This document shows positions 33,777 to 42,223 of a stretch of 64,000 bases of DNA, piece after piece. Origin of the DNA: Spirochaetae bacterium HGW-Spirochaetae-3. GTDB lineage: Bacteria > Spirochaetota > Spirochaetia > Treponematales > UBA12059. Location: contig PGXV01000005.1 of NCBI GenBank assembly GCA_002839315.1, positions 1 through 64,000 on the forward strand, in the 5' to 3' direction. Within the stretch, counting starts at the first letter, position 1. Each line of letters opens with the position of its first letter. The position numbers were made by a program, and so were the translations under genes. Under the pieces are notes generated by a model that was given only the letters and a program-made list of their open reading frames with translations, was not told where the DNA came from and searched no databases.

Positions 33777-35141
33777 CTAGGCGCCGTGTTTTATATGATA
33801 CATGCGCCGATCGGCCTCGGCGAGCACGGCCTCCACGTCCGGTCCGTCTTCGGGGAACAGGGCGCATCCTATGCTCGCCTTGGCCGCGCGTGAGACCGTG
33901 CCGAGGTCGAACGGTTCAAGGAAGCAACCTTGGAGACGCACCCGCACCTCCTCGACTCCCGACTGATCGGCGACAGAGGCTATCACGGCGAATTCGTCGC
34001 CTCCGAGCCTCGCCACGGTATCGCTCTTCCTGATCGCGACGCTTATCCTCGAAGCTACCTCGGCGAGCAGGCGATCCCCCGCCTCGTGACCGAGATCGTC
34101 GTTGACCGCCTTGAATTCGTCCAGGTCGACCATGCACAGGCAGACGCACGTTCCGTCCCGTTCCGCCCTGTTCGCCTCGACCCGCAGCCTGTCCCAGAAC
34201 AGGGCCCGGTTAGGCAGTTCGGTCAGCTGGTCGTGGTAAGCGAGCTCCTTGAGGGCCGATCGCGTCATCAAGAGGCCCCGGATGGCCGTTCCGGCGAGCG
34301 CGGCTATCGCTATACCGATCGCCGAAATAGCGGCGGCCAAGCCGCGGAACGTGTTCCATCCGCTCCTGGGTATGGCCGCGAGCGACCACGTGACGCCGGG
34401 CAGTACGACGTCCAGTACGACGGGATCCCGATCGAGGATGGACGGATCGCCGTATAGTATCGAATATCCCATACTGGACCCGGGGCCGGAATCGATAAAG
34501 AAAAGCAGGGAAGGGTGATTGGCGACGCCAGTTCGCTCGAGTATGGCCTCGCTGTCTAGGACGATGCTGGCCTGGCCCCAATACTCCGGCCCGCTCGGAC
34601 CGATGGGGAAGATGCCCATGCGGCTGATGAGTCCGACTCCGCCCTGGACGAGCGCGTGCGGGCCCGAGACGATGGGATCGCGGCTCGTCATCGCGCGCCT
34701 CACGTCCTTCGCCTGGGCGGGCATGGAGATGAGGTCGACTCCCAGCGCGGCCTTATTGGGCTCGTATGGATAGACGAACCGAATGGTCGTTCCCTCGAGA
34801 ACCGTCAGGTTCTTGATGATGGTGTCGTCCATGATGATCTGCCTGGCGAAATCGGTTAGCTTCCCGTCGTCGATCCTCGGATCGGCCGCTATGAAGGCGA
34901 CGACGCCGCGTTCCAGGCTGATGCGCTCGTTCAGGCTGCTCTCTATCGCTACCCTGACCGTCGACGCCTCGAGCAGGGCCCTGCCTCGCTCGTACTGCGC
35001 CAGGCGGGAGGTCTGCGAGAGCCCGGCTACGATGAACAGCGCGGAGACGCCTATGAACGCCAGGAGTCCCGCCATCGTGGCGTTGTTACGCGGAGGATTT
35101 TCGAATGTCCGAATCGGCGTCGAATCATGATGCATGCACAT
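33777..35141 (-). CDS. CHASE-GGDEF diguanylate cyclase
   Basis: A membrane diguanylate cyclase of about 454 residues. A first helix (LLAFIGVSALFIVAGL) and a second helix (about residues 275-300) flank an extracytoplasmic CHASE-type domain that includes LERGVVAFIAADPRID, RFVYPYEPNKAALGVDL and GISFPIGPSGPEYWG-like sequence. The GGDEF domain has an intact site ARLGGDEFAVIAS and an RxxD inhibitory site (RKSD) five residues before it. Of the possible starts at 35171, 35141 and 35135, none has a clear Shine-Dalgarno sequence; 35141 is a compromise. No EAL partner is nearby. Confidence 0.88.
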   Translation of the reverse strand: MCMHHDSTPIRTFENPPRNNATMAGLLAFIGVSALFIVAGLSQTSRLAQYERGRALLEASTVRVAIESSLNERISLERGVVAFIAADPRIDDGKLTDFARQIIMDDTIIKNLTVLEGTTIRFVYPYEPNKAALGVDLISMPAQAKDVRRAMTSRDPIVSGPHALVQGGVGLISRMGIFPIGPSGPEYWGQASIVLDSEAILERTGVANHPSLLFFIDSGPGSSMGYSILYGDPSILDRDPVVLDVVLPGVTWSLAAIPRSGWNTFRGLAAAISAIGIAIAALAGTAIRGLLMTRSALKELAYHDQLTELPNRALFWDRLRVEANRAERDGTCVCLCMVDLDEFKAVNDDLGHEAGDRLLAEVASRISVAIRKSDTVARLGGDEFAVIASVADQSGVEEVRVRLQGCFLEPFDLGTVSRAAKASIGCALFPEDGPDVEAVLAEADRRMYHIKHGA

Positions 35142-35275
35142 TAGCCTAGATTGGAGACTCGATCGGCGCAAGAGTGGCGAGCCGATTTTTTAGAAAGATG
35201 GTCTTACGCATAGAAACGATCGGCATGATTGACTCTACGAGCGCGTAAGGGTACTCATTATACCACTTACCTTCG

Positions 35276-35427
35276 AGAGGGCGCCTGGGGGTTCCTCCCG
35301 TTTCCTGTGCCGATACGGCGGGGAACGGGGACGAGACCGAGCGGCGCCGGCGGCTGCGTGACAGCCGAGACACCCACGGGATAAAAGCCCGAGGACGGAG
35401 TCTCGATCGATTTCGGGGTCCGTCCGT
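35276..35427 (+). promoter_or_regulatory. ykkC-class riboswitch (subtype 2-like: ppGpp/PRPP group)
   Basis: The leader of the ABC-2 exporter operon carries the conserved blocks of ykkC RNAs in order: CCTGGGGGTTCC (35284-35295), ACCGAGCGG (35336-35344), ACACC (35370-35374) and GGGATAAAAGCCCG (35378-35391). Helices fit: GGCGCC 35280-35285 with 35343-35348; CCCGTTTCC 35297-35305 with GGGAACGGG 35321-35329; CGGCT 35351-35355 with AGCCG 35363-35367. Block two reads ACCGAGCGG, as in the ppGpp/PRPP subtypes, and not GGTCCGAGAG of guanidine-I. After the aptamer, GGACGGA (35393-35399) can pair with TCCGTCC (35419-35425), a possible expression platform. Class confidence is high; the ligand is not settled by eye. 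Confidence 0.82.
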
Positions 35428-35487
35428 CCGCCCATTCAAAGCGCTCGCCGCAGGCGTCGTCCGGCCCCGTATTCTCGGGGGCTTCAT

Positions 35488-36537
35488 ATGGCAGCTATCG
35501 TCGCCAATCGTCTCACCAAGACATTCACCGCCAGGGTCCGTCCGTCGGGGCGCCTGTCCGCCATCCGCTCGCTCGTCAGGCCGGAGCTCCGGGAGGTGGA
35601 GGCCGTAAAGGGCGTATCGTTCGAGGTGGAGGAGGGCGAGCTCGTCGCGTTCCTCGGGCCGAACGGCGCGGGAAAGTCCACGACCATCAAGATGCTCATG
35701 GGGATACTGCAGCCTTCCGGCGGCGGGGCGAGCGTCCTCGGGCTCGATCCGTCCCGCGAGCGCGTCGAGCTGTCCCGCTACGTCGGCGCCGTCTTCGGGC
35801 AGAAGAGCCAGCTCTGGTTCCACCTGCCGCCGTCGGACTCGTTCCGCCTGCTCGGCGCCGTCTACGAGATAGACGAGGACGACAGGAAATGGCGCGAGGC
35901 GGAACTGATAGAGCGCTTCGGCCTCGCGCCCTACTGGGACGTGCCGGTGCGCAAGCTTTCGCTGGGGGAGCGCATACGATGCGAGATAGCCGCCAGCCTC
36001 CTTCCCGCGCCCCTCGTGCTTTTCCTCGACGAGCCGACTATAGGCCTCGACGTGGTCGCCAAGCGCGAGATTCGCCAGCTCCTAGCCGAGGCCGCCAGGG
36101 TGGACGACACGACCATCTTCCTGACGAGCCACGACATGGGCGACATCGAGAAGGTCTGCAAGCGCGCTATAATCATCCATCACGGCGAGGTCGTCGTCGA
36201 CGAGTCGATGAAGGACCTGCGGCACCGGGCCCTGTCGCTCAAGCACGTGGGCGTCCGGTACGCGTCGCCGGTCAATCTCGACCTGCCGACCCTGTCGCCG
36301 GTGAAGCGTACTCCGACGGCCGCCAGCTACGAGGTGGACACGCGCAAGCACTCGCTGGCCGAGGTGGTCCGCGCGCTGGCGTCCCGCGGCGAGCTCGAGG
36401 ACATAACGATAGAGGATGAGCCGTTGGAGAGCGTCATCGCCGCCATCTACAGCGCCGGTTCCGGCGCGGAGGCGCACGCCTTCGGTTCCGGCGACGGGAG
36501 CCTCGAACGGTTGGACGAGGCTTCCTCCGATGCGTAG
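35488..36537 (+). CDS. ABC-2 exporter ATP-binding protein
   Basis: A 349-residue ATPase of the NatA/CcmA-like group that pairs with DUF990-type permeases. Walker A GPNGAGKSTTIKMLMG, a GAVFGQKSQLWF Q-loop typical for this subfamily, signature LSLGERIRCEIAASL, Walker B LVLFLDEPTIGLDV and H-loop TSHDMGDIEKV. A C-terminal regulatory part of about 110 residues follows. The stop overlaps the first permease gene by 8 nt. It is controlled by the ykkC-class RNA just upstream. The exported compound is unknown. Confidence 0.9.
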   Translation: MAAIVANRLTKTFTARVRPSGRLSAIRSLVRPELREVEAVKGVSFEVEEGELVAFLGPNGAGKSTTIKMLMGILQPSGGGASVLGLDPSRERVELSRYVGAVFGQKSQLWFHLPPSDSFRLLGAVYEIDEDDRKWREAELIERFGLAPYWDVPVRKLSLGERIRCEIAASLLPAPLVLFLDEPTIGLDVVAKREIRQLLAEAARVDDTTIFLTSHDMGDIEKVCKRAIIIHHGEVVVDESMKDLRHRALSLKHVGVRYASPVNLDLPTLSPVKRTPTAASYEVDTRKHSLAEVVRALASRGELEDITIEDEPLESVIAAIYSAGSGAEAHAFGSGDGSLERLDEASSDA

Positions 36538-37348
36538 CCTCCGTCGAGGATCGCGCGTCTACGCCGTGGCGGCCTCTACCGCGATGCGGGAGAAGCTCGC
36601 GTATCCGGGCAACTTCGCGGGGTCCATGTTCACGTACGCGCTGTTCGTCTTCATCTTCTCCCGCGTGTGGGCCGGAGCCTACTCCGGGACGACCGAGATC
36701 GCGGGATACACCATGCGCATGTCCGTGTGGTACTTCATCGTCGCCGAGGTGCCGAGCTTCGGGTTCGGGCGCTTCTTCTGGACGCTGTCGCGCGATATGA
36801 AGAGCGGCCAGGTGGCGTACTTGCTGGTGCGACCGTACGACTTCATACGGTACAACTTCGCCGAGAAATTCGGCGGGTCGCTCGTAGAGGCCTGCGTCAT
36901 ACTCGCCGAAGGCCTCGCCGTGGGGCTCATGCTCGTCGGGCCGCCTCCCGCTACCGCCTCCGCCATGGCCGCGATGACCCGCCCGCTGTTCCTCGCCGCG
37001 TCGTTGCTGATGGCAGGGACGCTAAACTACCTCCTGCAGATGACGATAGCGATGACGGCGTTCTGGTTCGAGGAGAACGAGGCGTTCTTCTGGATATTCC
37101 AGAAATTCTCGCTGGTCGTCGGCACGCTGATGCCGATAGAGTTCCTGCCCCGGGCCGCCGCGCGGATCGCCGTCTGGACGCCGTTCCCATACCTCTCGTA
37201 CGCGCCGGCGCGGATCGCCGTGGCGTTCTCCTTCTCCGATGCGCTTTCCCTGCTGGCGCGCCAGGCGCTTTGGATAGCCGTCGCCCTGTGGCTGGCCAGG
37301 ATCGTGTTCGCGTCAGGGAGCCGGCGGCTCTCGGTTAACGGAGGCTGA
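36530..37348 (+). CDS. ABC-2 family permease subunit (DUF990 type)
   Basis: A 272-residue membrane protein with about six hydrophobic helices. The N-terminal MREKLAYPGNFAGSMFTYALFVFIFSRVW is typical of DUF990 permeases that work in pairs with a single ATPase. The start ATG 36530 overlaps the ATPase stop, which implies coupled translation. Upstream open frame is not protein-like. It forms a heteromeric channel with the next gene product. Confidence 0.85.
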   Translation: MRSLRRGSRVYAVAASTAMREKLAYPGNFAGSMFTYALFVFIFSRVWAGAYSGTTEIAGYTMRMSVWYFIVAEVPSFGFGRFFWTLSRDMKSGQVAYLLVRPYDFIRYNFAEKFGGSLVEACVILAEGLAVGLMLVGPPPATASAMAAMTRPLFLAASLLMAGTLNYLLQMTIAMTAFWFEENEAFFWIFQKFSLVVGTLMPIEFLPRAAARIAVWTPFPYLSYAPARIAVAFSFSDALSLLARQALWIAVALWLARIVFASGSRRLSVNGG

Positions 37349-37350
37349 AT

Positions 37351-38184
37351 ATGATAGGACGAAAGCGCCTTTCGCCGACGATGCGCCCGCTAGGGCGGAT
37401 ACGGGCTTACGCCCGCTTCTTGGCCGCCGCGTTCGCGGTCAACGTCAAGTCGACCCTCGAGTATCGCGTCAATTTCCTGCTGCAATTCTTCGGAATGATG
37501 CTCAACAACGCGGCGTTCGCCGCTTTCTGGGTCGTGCTCATAGCGAGGACGGGGAACGTCGGCGGCTACGGTTTCTCAGACGTCATGCTCGTATGGGCCT
37601 TCGTCTCCACATCGTTCGGGCTGGCTCATATCGTATTCGGGAACGTCCGCCAGCTCGGCCGTATCATCATGGAGGGCGGCCTCGACGTATACCTGCTCCA
37701 GCCCAAGGACGTATGGATAAACGCGCTCGCGTCGAAGACGATCGTGTCCGCCTGGGGGGATTTCGCGTACGGGTTCATCGTCCTGGCCATGACTACGGGC
37801 GCGGATCCCGAGCGCTGGGCCCTCTTCGTGGCCCTCGTCATCCCCGGGGCGCTTATATTCGCCGCGACGTTCGCGGCCGCCGAGAGCCTCGCGTTCTTCA
37901 TCGGGAATTCGTCGGCGATATCGTCCGCGCTTACGGAATTCATGCTGTCGTTCTCGCTATATCCCGAGGGAATCTACGGCTCGGGCATGCGCTGGATGCT
38001 GTATACGATAGTGCCGTCGGGATTCGTCGCCTTCATGCCGCTACGGATATTCAAGGCGCTGGACTGGCGGCTCGCGCCGGTCCTGTTCCTGATAGCCGTC
38101 GCGTACGTATGGCTGTCGTACGCGCTTTTCAATATGGGGCTCCGTCGCTACGAGTCCGGCAACCGGATGGACGCGCGCGTCTGA
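37351..38184 (+). CDS. ABC-2 family permease subunit (DUF990 type), second
   Basis: A 277-residue membrane protein, paralogous to the preceding permease, with six predicted helices (AFAVNVKSTLEYRVNFLLQFFGMMLNNAAFAAFW at residues 25-58). It begins 3 bases after the previous stop. Together with the ATPase and first permease it completes an exporter. Its C-terminus ends in a helix and a short basic tail. Confidence 0.85.
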   Translation: MIGRKRLSPTMRPLGRIRAYARFLAAAFAVNVKSTLEYRVNFLLQFFGMMLNNAAFAAFWVVLIARTGNVGGYGFSDVMLVWAFVSTSFGLAHIVFGNVRQLGRIIMEGGLDVYLLQPKDVWINALASKTIVSAWGDFAYGFIVLAMTTGADPERWALFVALVIPGALIFAATFAAAESLAFFIGNSSAISSALTEFMLSFSLYPEGIYGSGMRWMLYTIVPSGFVAFMPLRIFKALDWRLAPVLFLIAVAYVWLSYALFNMGLRRYESGNRMDARV

Positions 38185-38238: not shown

Positions 38239-39480
38239 ATGCGTCTTAAAGCCCCGCTCCAGGCGGGCCTGCCCGCAGAGATATACGCGCTGTTCGCGGT
38301 TCGCCTCGTCGTATCCGCCGGCTCCTTCGTAGGGCCGTTCCTCGCGATGATGCTGACGATGAAGCTGGGCTACGACGAGGCCCGCGCCGGGCTCTTCATG
38401 TCCATCGTCGCGGTAATGTCGGCGCTAGGCCTCGTGGTCGGCGGCAAGCTCGGAGACGCCTTCGACAGGCCGCGCGTGCTCCGGACCCTGCAGTCGATAA
38501 CCGCGGTCGCCTATATCGTCTGCGGCGTCATCGGCTTCAACGCGGTCACGCCCTTCGTCATAGCGTTCGCGATGGGGACGCTCAACGGTACCTGGCCGAT
38601 CATCAACGCTATCGTGGCCGACGTAGCGCCGGCCGATCGTCGGAAAGAGGCCTTCTCGCTGATTTACTGGGGTAATAACATCGGCTTCTCCATAGGGCCG
38701 TTCGTCGCGGGTATGCTCTTTACGAGGGCGCCTTCGGCGCTGTTCTTCGGTAACGCCGTCGTTCTGTTCGCCGCGGCGCTGATCGTCGCGCGGTACGTCA
38801 GGGGCGTAGCCCTTCCGGAAGCCGTCCCCGATCCCTCCATACGGACGACTGCCGCCGTCGCGCCCGGGTCGGTCTGGGCTGTATTCAGGCAGAACCCCAT
38901 ACTGCTCCTGTACTCGGCGGGATCCGTCCTGACGGCCTTCGTCTACAACCAGCATACCTTCGCGCTACCGATCTTCCTCAAGGACGTGCTCGGCGATACT
39001 GACGGCCCCAAGGTGTTCGGAGCCGCGATGATGACCAACGGCCTGACCGTCGTCGCGTTGACCGCGCTCGTCGTCCTCGCCTCCAGGCGCCTACGGTCGC
39101 TGACTTCCGTGGCGATAGCGTCGTTGTTCTACGCCGTCGGCTTCGGAGGCTACTATTTCGTCGGGGGAATCCGATCGGGCGCCCCGCTGGCGTTGGGAGC
39201 CACCGTCGTATGGACGATCGGCGAGATCCTCGGCAGCACGAACGGCAACGCGTTCATAGCGGAGAGCGCGCCTCCCGCTTTCAGGAGCCGTGTCAATTCG
39301 GCCGTTTCGTTCTGCTATATCGGCGGCAACGCGCTCGCTCCGTTGGTCGCCGGCCCCGTCGCCCGATCCTACGGCAGCGCCGCCGTCTGGCCGTTCGTCA
39401 CGGTCTGCGCGCTAGCCTCCGCCGCCTACATGTTCGCGGTCGATCGGATCGACCGGAACCGCGCGCGGCGGGGCGTCTAG
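38239..39480 (+). CDS. Major facilitator superfamily transporter
   Basis: A 413-residue MFS protein with twelve predicted helices. The signature loop between helices 2 and 3 reads GGKLGDAFDRPRVL, and GNNIGFSIGPFVAGMLF in helix 5 resembles the drug-antiporter motif C, so efflux is more likely than uptake. It starts 54 bases after the ABC exporter operon with AAAGGA upstream and a TAGAAT word at 38192, so it may have its own promoter or be read through from the riboswitch-controlled operon. The substrate is unknown. Confidence 0.85.
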   Translation: MRLKAPLQAGLPAEIYALFAVRLVVSAGSFVGPFLAMMLTMKLGYDEARAGLFMSIVAVMSALGLVVGGKLGDAFDRPRVLRTLQSITAVAYIVCGVIGFNAVTPFVIAFAMGTLNGTWPIINAIVADVAPADRRKEAFSLIYWGNNIGFSIGPFVAGMLFTRAPSALFFGNAVVLFAAALIVARYVRGVALPEAVPDPSIRTTAAVAPGSVWAVFRQNPILLLYSAGSVLTAFVYNQHTFALPIFLKDVLGDTDGPKVFGAAMMTNGLTVVALTALVVLASRRLRSLTSVAIASLFYAVGFGGYYFVGGIRSGAPLALGATVVWTIGEILGSTNGNAFIAESAPPAFRSRVNSAVSFCYIGGNALAPLVAGPVARSYGSAAVWPFVTVCALASAAYMFAVDRIDRNRARRGV

Positions 39481-39486
39481 CGAGCG

Positions 39487-40953
39487 TTACTTTTTCGCGT
39501 CCTTAGCCTGCTGCCGCTTTACGTACCGGTTCAGCATGCCCTGCACGAACCCCGGCCTGGCGCCGGCCTCCTCGGAACCGGACCCGCCGCGGCTTAACGA
39601 CTGGCTGTCCGACAGGTCTATCTCGCCCGCGGATAGCCGGTACGACTCGGCGAACATGTCCAGTACCTGCTTGCGGACCATGCCCCGAAGCGGAATATGC
39701 GAGATCATGCCGTACGTAGCGGCCTGACCGCTTTCGGCGAGCTCGGGATGGGCGCGCACGTGCGTTACGGCCTGGGCGAGGTCGGCGAGGTATCGGTCGA
39801 CGACGCGGTCGTGGGACGCGGTGACCATCGCGTGCAGCGCGTCCGGTCGCTGGAGCCGGTCGATGTGCCAGCCTTTCTTCTCCATCTCGTCGCCGACCGC
39901 GAAGATGTTGAGCCCGCCGTCTACGGAGCGGTACGAGAAAAGGCTCGCCTTGGGCTCGCCTATGATCGCCAGTCCCGGTATCGCGCGTATCCCGTCGATC
40001 ATCCGCTTGGTAGCGTCCATCGTGCGCCTCGCCAGCTCTACGTAGCCGTCCTCGCCGTTAGCCTGGATCGCCGCCCACGCCGCCGCGTACGCTCCGCCCG
40101 GCCTGGTCCCGAGCAGCGCCGGTGACGCGAAGATACCGCCCGGCCAGTCCTCATAGACGAATACCTGGTGGCGGAACGTCTCGAGCTTCCTGTACAGGAT
40201 GCAGGAGGCGCCCTTGGCGGCGAATCCGTACTTGTGGATGTCGGCGGAGATGGAAGAGACGCCGGGTACGCGGAAGTCCCATAGGGGCAGCCCGACGCCC
40301 AGCCTCTCTATGAACGGGAGCAGGTAGCCGCCGACGCAGGCGTCGACGTGCAGCGGGACGCCGGCGGCGAGGGCGATCTCGCCGAGCTCGGCGATCGGGT
40401 CTATGGCGCCGTGCGGATACTCCGGCGCCGAGCCGAGTATCATTACCGTATTGCGGTTGACGAGCCTCTTGACCGCGTCGACGTCGACCCCGTAGTCCGC
40501 GGCGAGCGGCGCCCGCCGTATCCTGACGCCGAAATACTCCGAGCCCTTCTCCCACGCGACGTGCGCGGTCTCCGGCAGGATCATCTCCGGCTTCCTGATC
40601 CCCTTGGACCTGCCGAGGTCGCGGTACGTCTTGACCGCCAGGAGGCAGCTCTCCGTGCCGCCGGACGTCATGACGCCGCACGCGTCGTCGTCGCCGTGGA
40701 ACAGCTCGGACGTCACGCGGAGCACGTCCCTCTCGAAGCGCTTGAGGCTCTTGAACGCCGTCGGGTTGAGGCCGTTGGCCGAGAAGTATTTATCGTAGGC
40801 GGACTCGAGAAAGCCCGTGTACTCCGCGTCGAGGTAGTACACGAGGCTCCAGGTCTTGGCGTCCTTGTACTTCGGGTCGTCCGCGCCGAAGCCGTCGAGG
40901 TCGGCGAGCACCTCGTCGTACGGCCGGCCTTTTTTGGGAAGATACGTTTTCAT
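39487..40953 (-). CDS. PLP-dependent group II decarboxylase / sphingosine-phosphate-lyase-like protein
   Basis: A 488-residue pyridoxal-phosphate enzyme. The cofactor Lys lies in SISADIHKYGFAAKGAS (near residue 240), preceded by the PLP-stacking and aspartate motifs TSGGTESCLLAV and LHVDACVGGYLLPF. The pattern fits the sphingosine-1-phosphate lyase/glutamate decarboxylase branch; the substrate could be an amino acid or a phosphorylated amino alcohol. ATG 40953 has AAGGAG upstream. It is the second gene of an operon with a DUF819 membrane protein, which suggests transport and lysis or decarboxylation of the same compound. Confidence 0.85.
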   Translation of the reverse strand: MKTYLPKKGRPYDEVLADLDGFGADDPKYKDAKTWSLVYYLDAEYTGFLESAYDKYFSANGLNPTAFKSLKRFERDVLRVTSELFHGDDDACGVMTSGGTESCLLAVKTYRDLGRSKGIRKPEMILPETAHVAWEKGSEYFGVRIRRAPLAADYGVDVDAVKRLVNRNTVMILGSAPEYPHGAIDPIAELGEIALAAGVPLHVDACVGGYLLPFIERLGVGLPLWDFRVPGVSSISADIHKYGFAAKGASCILYRKLETFRHQVFVYEDWPGGIFASPALLGTRPGGAYAAAWAAIQANGEDGYVELARRTMDATKRMIDGIRAIPGLAIIGEPKASLFSYRSVDGGLNIFAVGDEMEKKGWHIDRLQRPDALHAMVTASHDRVVDRYLADLAQAVTHVRAHPELAESGQAATYGMISHIPLRGMVRKQVLDMFAESYRLSAGEIDLSDSQSLSRGGSGSEEAGARPGFVQGMLNRYVKRQQAKDAKK

Positions 40954-40979
40954 CGATGGGCTCCTTGCTGTAGCGGCCG

Positions 40980-42143
40980 TCAGAACGGCAGATTCTTGAA
41001 GAGATACGCGACCGAGATCCCGAGGTAGTTGCCTATCGCGTAGCCGACTATACCGGTGGTCAGGCCGGAGATGAGGATAGCCTTGTTCTTGAGCGCTCCG
41101 GCCACGACCGGCACGAAGGGCGGCGAGCAGATCGCCGAGACCGAGGTGATGATGAACGTGTCGGCGTCGATCTTGGCGAGCCTGCAGAACAGCGCGTGGA
41201 GGAAGAGGCTGCCGAATATCGATAGAGCCACGTAGCCGAGTATCGCGTAGTCGATGTGGATGAGGCTGTCGAGCCTCGTCATCGACGCTACGACGAAGCA
41301 GAATACGTATATAACGTACATGCCCGCCTGGAAGGTCTTCCTGATACGGCGCACGGGCTTGATGAACGAAGCGGCGATGCCGAGCGTCGTTATGGCCAGT
41401 ATCGTTACCGCGGTGCCTGCCGTCGGCGGCAATAGCCCGCCTATGAACGCGGATACGCCGACGATGGCGCACGATAGCAGTACGGCGAGGCCGAGCCTGC
41501 CTAGTATTCCGGGCTTGAACAGACCCGCGTATGCGTCGATGGATTCTTCCTCGTCGTCGGTGACGTCATCCGTCCCCGACGTCGCCGGCGCCTCGAACGG
41601 CCGCAGGCGCATATAGCGGACGAAGAAGGGCCTGGCTATGGACGACATCAGGAATATATAGAGAAGCGATAGTACCGTATCGTAGGTGTGGAAGAGGATG
41701 TATGTGTCGTTCCTTATGCCGAGCGCCGACTTGATGGCCGCGAGGTTCGGCGTGCCCCCGGTGTAGACGCCTATCGCCAGCCCGGACAGCTGCCACGCCA
41801 TGGGGTTGGAGGAGCGTAGCCATAGCTGTAGCGCGAAGGCGACGATGACTATCGATACGACCGCGAGCAGCATGCAGAGCATGCCTTTCCCCGCGACCCG
41901 GAACCATTTCCTCACGTCCAGCGAGAAGAGCAGCAACGGTAACGCGATCGCCACGCTCATGTCGGCCATCGTCGACTGGACCGGCGCGAACCCGGCCGGC
42001 AGGACGCCTATGTTGCCGACGATCATGCCCGCTATATAGCATAGCAGCACCGTCCCTATCTTGCGGAACGCCGCGAAGCGGTAGCAAAGATACACGAGCA
42101 ACGCCGGGAACGCCGCGAATAGTATCGCTATCGAAATATTCAT
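40980..42143 (-). CDS. DUF819 family integral membrane protein
   Basis: A 387-residue membrane protein with about ten hydrophobic helices. The block SGLAIGVYTGGTPNLAAIKSALG near residue 140 and the late SVSAICSPPFVPVVAGALKNKAIL block are hallmarks of DUF819 (YjcL-like), a family predicted to transport small acids or amino acids. An acidic loop (DDVTDDEEESID) lies in the middle. ATG 42143 has AGGAGG upstream. It is first in the operon with the PLP enzyme and divergent from a TetR gene. The transported solute is not known. Confidence 0.82.
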   Translation of the reverse strand: MNISIAILFAAFPALLVYLCYRFAAFRKIGTVLLCYIAGMIVGNIGVLPAGFAPVQSTMADMSVAIALPLLLFSLDVRKWFRVAGKGMLCMLLAVVSIVIVAFALQLWLRSSNPMAWQLSGLAIGVYTGGTPNLAAIKSALGIRNDTYILFHTYDTVLSLLYIFLMSSIARPFFVRYMRLRPFEAPATSGTDDVTDDEEESIDAYAGLFKPGILGRLGLAVLLSCAIVGVSAFIGGLLPPTAGTAVTILAITTLGIAASFIKPVRRIRKTFQAGMYVIYVFCFVVASMTRLDSLIHIDYAILGYVALSIFGSLFLHALFCRLAKIDADTFIITSVSAICSPPFVPVVAGALKNKAILISGLTTGIVGYAIGNYLGISVAYLFKNLPF

Positions 42144-42171
42144 GATACTTCCTCCTGCATTAACATGCATA

Positions 42172-42223
42172 ATAATACATCCTGTTGAAATATGTTGCAA
42201 TCAATATCGGCTTGCCGTATTAT
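42172..42223. promoter_or_regulatory. Divergent promoters sharing one palindromic -35 hexamer
   Basis: TTGCAA at 42195-42200 is its own reverse complement. To the right, a 17-nt spacer leads to TATTAT (42218-42223) for the TetR gene. To the left, a 17-nt spacer leads to TATTAT on the minus strand (42177-42172) for the DUF819 operon. The two promoters are symmetrical and cannot both hold polymerase. On the right the -10 ends 7 nt before the ATG at 42231, so the TetR mRNA is probably leaderless. Confidence 0.7.

Follow-up and report, generated by a model that had tools for sequence, protein, structure and literature searches.

RNAs of the ykkC class have been sorted into subtypes by their ligands, and the positions that distinguish them are described in detail. 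Base 49 is an A in guanidine-I RNAs and a pyrimidine in the ppGpp and PRPP types, and base 96 is a G in the PRPP type and absent or different from G in the ppGpp type (PMC6031431). Base 96 is the switch position between PRPP and ppGpp, with an effect of about 40,000-fold for G96A; the contacts of ppGpp are A5, G6, G48, C75, A76, C77 and G105, and C75U favours adenine ligands (PMC6031431). The fold as a whole readily changes ligand (PMC6031431, PMC7266159). The ppGpp riboswitches, subtype 2a, are located before natA transporters, branched-chain amino acid genes and glutamate synthase genes (PMC5912903), and for a natA aptamer from Clostridiales a preference of about 10-fold for pppGpp over ppGpp is reported (PMC12373219). 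The association of a ppGpp-class RNA with a natA transporter is thus already published (PMC5912903, PMC12373219); the new parts of the locus described here are the phylum, the divergence of the sequence and an expression platform without a U-tract.

We analysed a 64-kb stretch (the window) from the 3.9-Mb genome of an uncultured spirochaete, in which an initial annotation had placed a ykkC-class RNA at 35276-35427, with all conserved blocks in order and with matching helices. The four blocks were located in the correct order, CCUGGGGGUUCC from 35284, ACCGAGCGG from 35336, ACACC from 35370 and GGGAUAAAAGCCCG at 35378-35391. The aptamer with the ykkC fold, including its closing helix P0, occupies 35273-35406 (+), and the annotated end at 35427 matches that of an alternative hairpin, H1 (35393-35425); together they end 62 bases 5' of the gene for an ABC ATPase. 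The aptamer consists of the helices P0 (UCGAGA/UCUCGA), P1 (GGCGCC/GGCGCC), P2 and P3; P1 encloses a variable inner hairpin, and P3 has an AUAAAAG loop. The 5' strand of P0 (35273-35278, +) is followed by G35279, the equivalent of G6, and its partner at 35401-35406 (+) was assigned from pairing and covariation. The P1 region (35280-35348, +), in which 35280-35285 pairs with 35343-35348, encloses the GGGGGUUCC core, the variable hairpin and CCGAGCG. The P2 hairpin (CGGCUG/CAGCCG, 35351-35367, +) showed 93.8% of cells paired, with compensatory changes, and the ACAC equivalent to A74-C77 lies together with P3 and its loop at 35370-35394 (+), where the 3' strand GAGG is without a bulged G96. The minimum free energy fold of the leader alone was not exceptional (z -1.46).

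A search of the window with Rfam gave no match at gathering level. Guanidine-I (RF00442), the sole Rfam ykkC model that responded to the leader, has a gathering score of 63 bits and gave 28.5 bits (E 0.0016 for a 261-base stretch), and a search of the whole genome with this model returned nothing at E 0.001 or better. We calibrated RF00442 on ppGpp-type ykkC RNAs from Firmicutes and other bacteria, and those located before leuA, ilvE, gltB and natA-type genes scored 27.8-57.4 bits, all below the cut-off; RNAs of the ppGpp type match the Guanidine-I model because no other ykkC model responds. The comparison with Rfam thresholds by which the annotation was to be judged was therefore formally failed, yet the missed gathering score is uninformative about the ykkC fold, since ppGpp-class RNAs miss the same cut-off. 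Rfam as the only test was rejected because the gathering score is missed and the subtypes are not separable. It also follows from the calibration that the single ykkC model of Rfam misses ppGpp-type RNAs.

Covariance models for subtypes 2a (R1) and 2b (R2) were trained without any spirochaete RNA. With both models the leader was the single match in the 64-kb window, at 41.2 bits (E 7.5e-9) for R1 and 45.8 bits (E 1.6e-10) for R2, which bears out the class given in the initial annotation, and no match was detected by either model at three control loci of distant paralogues (L025-L027). A family model, R3, whose training set includes the leader sequence, detected the leader as its single match in the 3.9-Mb genome. 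Across 247 genomes sampled over the phylum R3 gave matches in four, one of them weak, and this tally is an undercount because of strict filters.

The leader was found directly upstream of all 17 ATPase orthologues with at least 60% identity, a set of 17 loci from 39 related genomes that covers at least 10 genera and three families. Inspection of the three paralogues next in identity (39-43%) showed no such leader. We aligned the 17 spirochaete leaders with nine Firmicutes-type sequences, with variable loops trimmed, and 94% of the pair cells were standard compared to 34-47% in slid controls; changes on both sides were observed in 13 of the 18 pairs, P0 among them. When P2 was added and the loops were retained, 97.3% of pair cells were paired. 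In all 26 sequences the strands of P0 form 5-8 bp, with a range of 5-6 bp among the 17 spirochaete leaders, and after strands were swapped between sequences 37% had at least 5 bp. Both sides had changed in five of the six pairs of P0 and likewise in five of six in P1, where 99.3% of the cells were paired. With the blocks located and P0-P3 covarying, the ordered blocks and helices of the initial annotation stand, and so does its proposal that the leader would control an ABC-2 exporter. Judged by these comparisons, the leader is a genuine, conserved ykkC riboswitch, far beyond chance.

As a means of calling the subtype, whole covariance models were rejected: the scores for 2a and 2b are alike (41.2 vs 45.8 bits). 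For this reason we used the pocket positions. The position that corresponds to A46/C49 is a C in 17/17 spirochaete leaders, within GAGCG or AAGCG. The second base after P3, the equivalent of G96, is an A in 14 of these leaders, a C in two and a U in one; it is other than G in 8/9 reference ppGpp-class RNAs and a G in 54/54 PRPP-like RNAs. With positions mapped by alignment, the equivalents of A5, G6, G48, C75, A76, C77 and G105 are all kept in the spirochaete leaders, and position 104 is an A in the leader, as it is in several Firmicutes 2a RNAs. The initial annotation had proposed a nucleotide-type rather than a guanidine subtype, with which the C at the A46 position and the presence of P0 agree. 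It had left the ligand open, which is less so than stated: base 96, base 49, P0 and the type of operon point to (p)ppGpp, and the leader is most likely a (p)ppGpp-responsive riboswitch.

The likeness to the natA group of ppGpp riboswitches extends over the P0/P1/P2/P3 layout, the pocket bases, the missing G96 and the genes for an ATPase and two PF06182 permeases. The leader differs from this group in its Spirochaetota host, a long variable P1 hairpin, the low Rfam score, the lack of a U-tract after the competing hairpin, and the P3 internal loop, CCAC/GAGG in the spirochaete family and unlike that of most Firmicutes 2a RNAs. This divergent loop would also suit an NDP riboswitch (2c) or a fifth, undescribed specificity of subtype 2, as would the ease with which the ykkC fold changes its ligand (PMC6031431, PMC7266159); the 2a assignment draws on few pocket positions and on a comparison set that holds no 2c reference. 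We nevertheless consider such a specificity unlikely, because the equivalent of C75 is kept, whereas C75U would favour adenine ligands (PMC6031431), the operon type is identical to that of the natA operons behind ppGpp-class RNAs, and the operon contains no NUDIX or HAD hydrolase gene. It is likewise doubtful that the spirochaete family forms a specificity of its own within the ykkC fold, in which P3 would be continuous and lack an S-turn, the ligand would be some nucleotide distinct from ppGpp, PRPP and NDPs, and the output would be translational.

A PRPP riboswitch (2b) placed before a transporter would share the overall fold and the P0 helix, and the 2b model did score slightly above the 2a model, but the G96 that is invariant in PRPP-like RNAs has no counterpart in any of the 17 spirochaete leaders and the purine-gene context is absent, which makes this reading quite improbable. 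It is still harder to see the leader as a Guanidine-I riboswitch on a guanidinium exporter. The sole Rfam match is to the Guanidine-I model, and the core blocks and P1-P3 are shared with it; however, ppGpp-type RNAs match the same model, the score lies below gathering, the leader has a C for A46, an additional P0 and a different P3 strand, and no SMR, carboxylase or guanidine genes were found in the operon. A decayed or chance look-alike of the ykkC fold without function, which the sub-threshold Rfam score and the ordinary z-score would allow, is already contradicted by the strong covariation and by the presence of the leader at 17/17 orthologues in at least 10 genera, and can hardly be credited.

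The unit behind the leader starts with an ABC ATPase of the natA type (349 aa, 35488-36537, +; PF00005, 2.6e-24). It continues with two ABC-2 permeases of PF06182, the former DUF990, at 36416-37348 (+; 5.3e-11) and 37351-38184 (+; 1e-25), both assigned with the help of orthologues; the true start of the first is probably at 36530, as its sequence suggests. An accessory MFS transporter of efflux type follows at 38239-39480 (+; PF07690, 5.3e-36). The initial annotation had listed the ATPase, two permeases and the MFS gene behind the leader. The first three are conserved and the MFS gene falls outside the conserved unit, being found at the operon only in L148, L149, L151 and L152, loci that belong to the genus of the window and to one further genus. 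One natA-like ATPase with two DUF990-type permeases is also the gene make-up of EvrABC of Synechocystis in TCDB 3.A.1.141, to which we liken the operon on this basis. The name of that family, ethyl viologen exporter, is taken from PMC5417439, and ethyl viologen is the sole substrate named for it in the literature consulted. The nearest characterised exporter relatives export ethyl viologen, the operon of the window being placed among them by its ATPase and two PF06182 permeases. A sequence search of the PDB with the second permease found no relative. The operon is flanked by a divergent gene of the diguanylate cyclase type (CHASE-GGDEF, 33777-35171), which adjoins the operon in several relatives too. 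On the minus strand we observed a PLP decarboxylase with MfnA and glutamate decarboxylase among its relatives (39487-41472) and, adjoining it, a multi-pass membrane protein (40980-42200).

The same three genes were detected behind a ppGpp-type RNA in Alicyclobacillus (L059), Thermohalobacteraceae (L064) and Tumebacillus (L078). The ATPases of these loci are 47-50% identical to that of the window (50% for L064), and the tail motif GAGUCUCGA is common to L064 and the spirochaete family. The pairing of the RNA with a DUF990-type exporter is therefore kept across two phyla, which makes the exporter a good target in the search for the export cargo of the stringent response, and a ppGpp-type riboswitch would be placed in Spirochaetota, beyond the published Firmicutes examples. 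The host genome contains two genes with RelA/SpoT domains, so ppGpp is probably made in the host.

Downstream of P3, H1 (35393-35425, +) is formed by GGACGGA (35393-35399) with UCCGUCC (35419-35425) and by UCUCGA with UCGGGG (35413-35418). Both GGACGGA, from the 3' side of P3, and UCUCGA, from that of P0, pair with UCGGGGUCCGUCC. Since H1 reuses these strands, it and the aptamer are mutually exclusive, and because they cannot coexist the layout is that of an ON switch; we propose H1 as the OFF state. The duplex energy of H1 was better than that of shuffled sequences, with p at most 0.026, in 14 of the 17 orthologues, despite sequence change, and was not significant in the remaining three (L016, L019 and L024). 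Minimum free energy folds also speak for H1. A terminator scan of the + strand detected no U-tract terminator after H1. In the leaders of L064 and L059 the corresponding 3' strands of P3 and of P0 enter a hairpin with a U-rich run behind it. The expression platform is therefore not uniform, given the missing U-tract and the three leaders without a significant H1.

The Shine-Dalgarno-like sequence GGGGG (35477-35481, +) precedes the ATG at 35488-35490, and GGCCCC at 35463-35468 can pair with it in predicted folds. In several leaders the Shine-Dalgarno sequence is maskable in such folds. A simple switch in which the 3' strand of P0 sequesters it was rejected, with duplex energies better than those of shuffles at p<0.05 in only 3/17 leaders (L009, L012 and L024), and for that reason sequestration is not claimed as general. 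When the aptamer was enforced, with P1 constraints that were partly wrong, the accessibility of the Shine-Dalgarno sequence showed no consistent change.

Upstream of the aptamer we located a candidate promoter (35210-35234, +) with a -35-like TTGACT at 35229-35234 and, 11 bases upstream of it, a ATAGAAAC box at 35210-35217. This box, preceded by TATAT, and TTGAC recur at matching positions before most orthologues, and their spacing pattern has one occurrence in the genome. A consensus promoter scan gave no full sigma-70 match at this site, so the candidate is defined by comparison only. The ATAGAAAC box is possibly an operator or an UP-like element that adds a second input.

Taking these elements together, we consider it likely, from sequence comparison, that the leader is a ppGpp-type (2a) ykkC riboswitch that turns ON the ABC-2 exporter operon as (p)ppGpp rises. 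In the proposed mechanism (p)ppGpp would bind the aptamer, and its guanine would pair with C35371, the equivalent of C75, because no G96 fills that place. The bound ligand would lock P0 on P3 and so block H1, and with H1 blocked the ATPase and the two permeases would be expressed under starvation. As no U-run follows H1, we infer that the switch probably acts through Rho or on translation.

Several other ykkC RNAs were observed during the comparison. Two Streptosporangiaceae contigs contain ykkC RNAs without P0 (L074, 4235-4346; L105, 2865-2992), whose best match to the 2a model omits the P0 strands (positions 16-106). The first lies before an EamA gene, and both are candidates for the orphan subtype 2d, the EamA/TauE context of which is not found at the operon of the window. 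In Thermovorax (L054, 852-6114) a ppGpp-type ykkC RNA precedes a gene with a glutamate synthase domain, a ZMP/ZTP riboswitch lies just after this gene, and a T-box leader is located within about 5 kb. In a Terrabacteria genome (ANGP1; L104, 1615-1722) a glutamate synthase gene is likewise preceded by a ppGpp-type RNA whose tail pairs as P0, and this represents another case outside Firmicutes.
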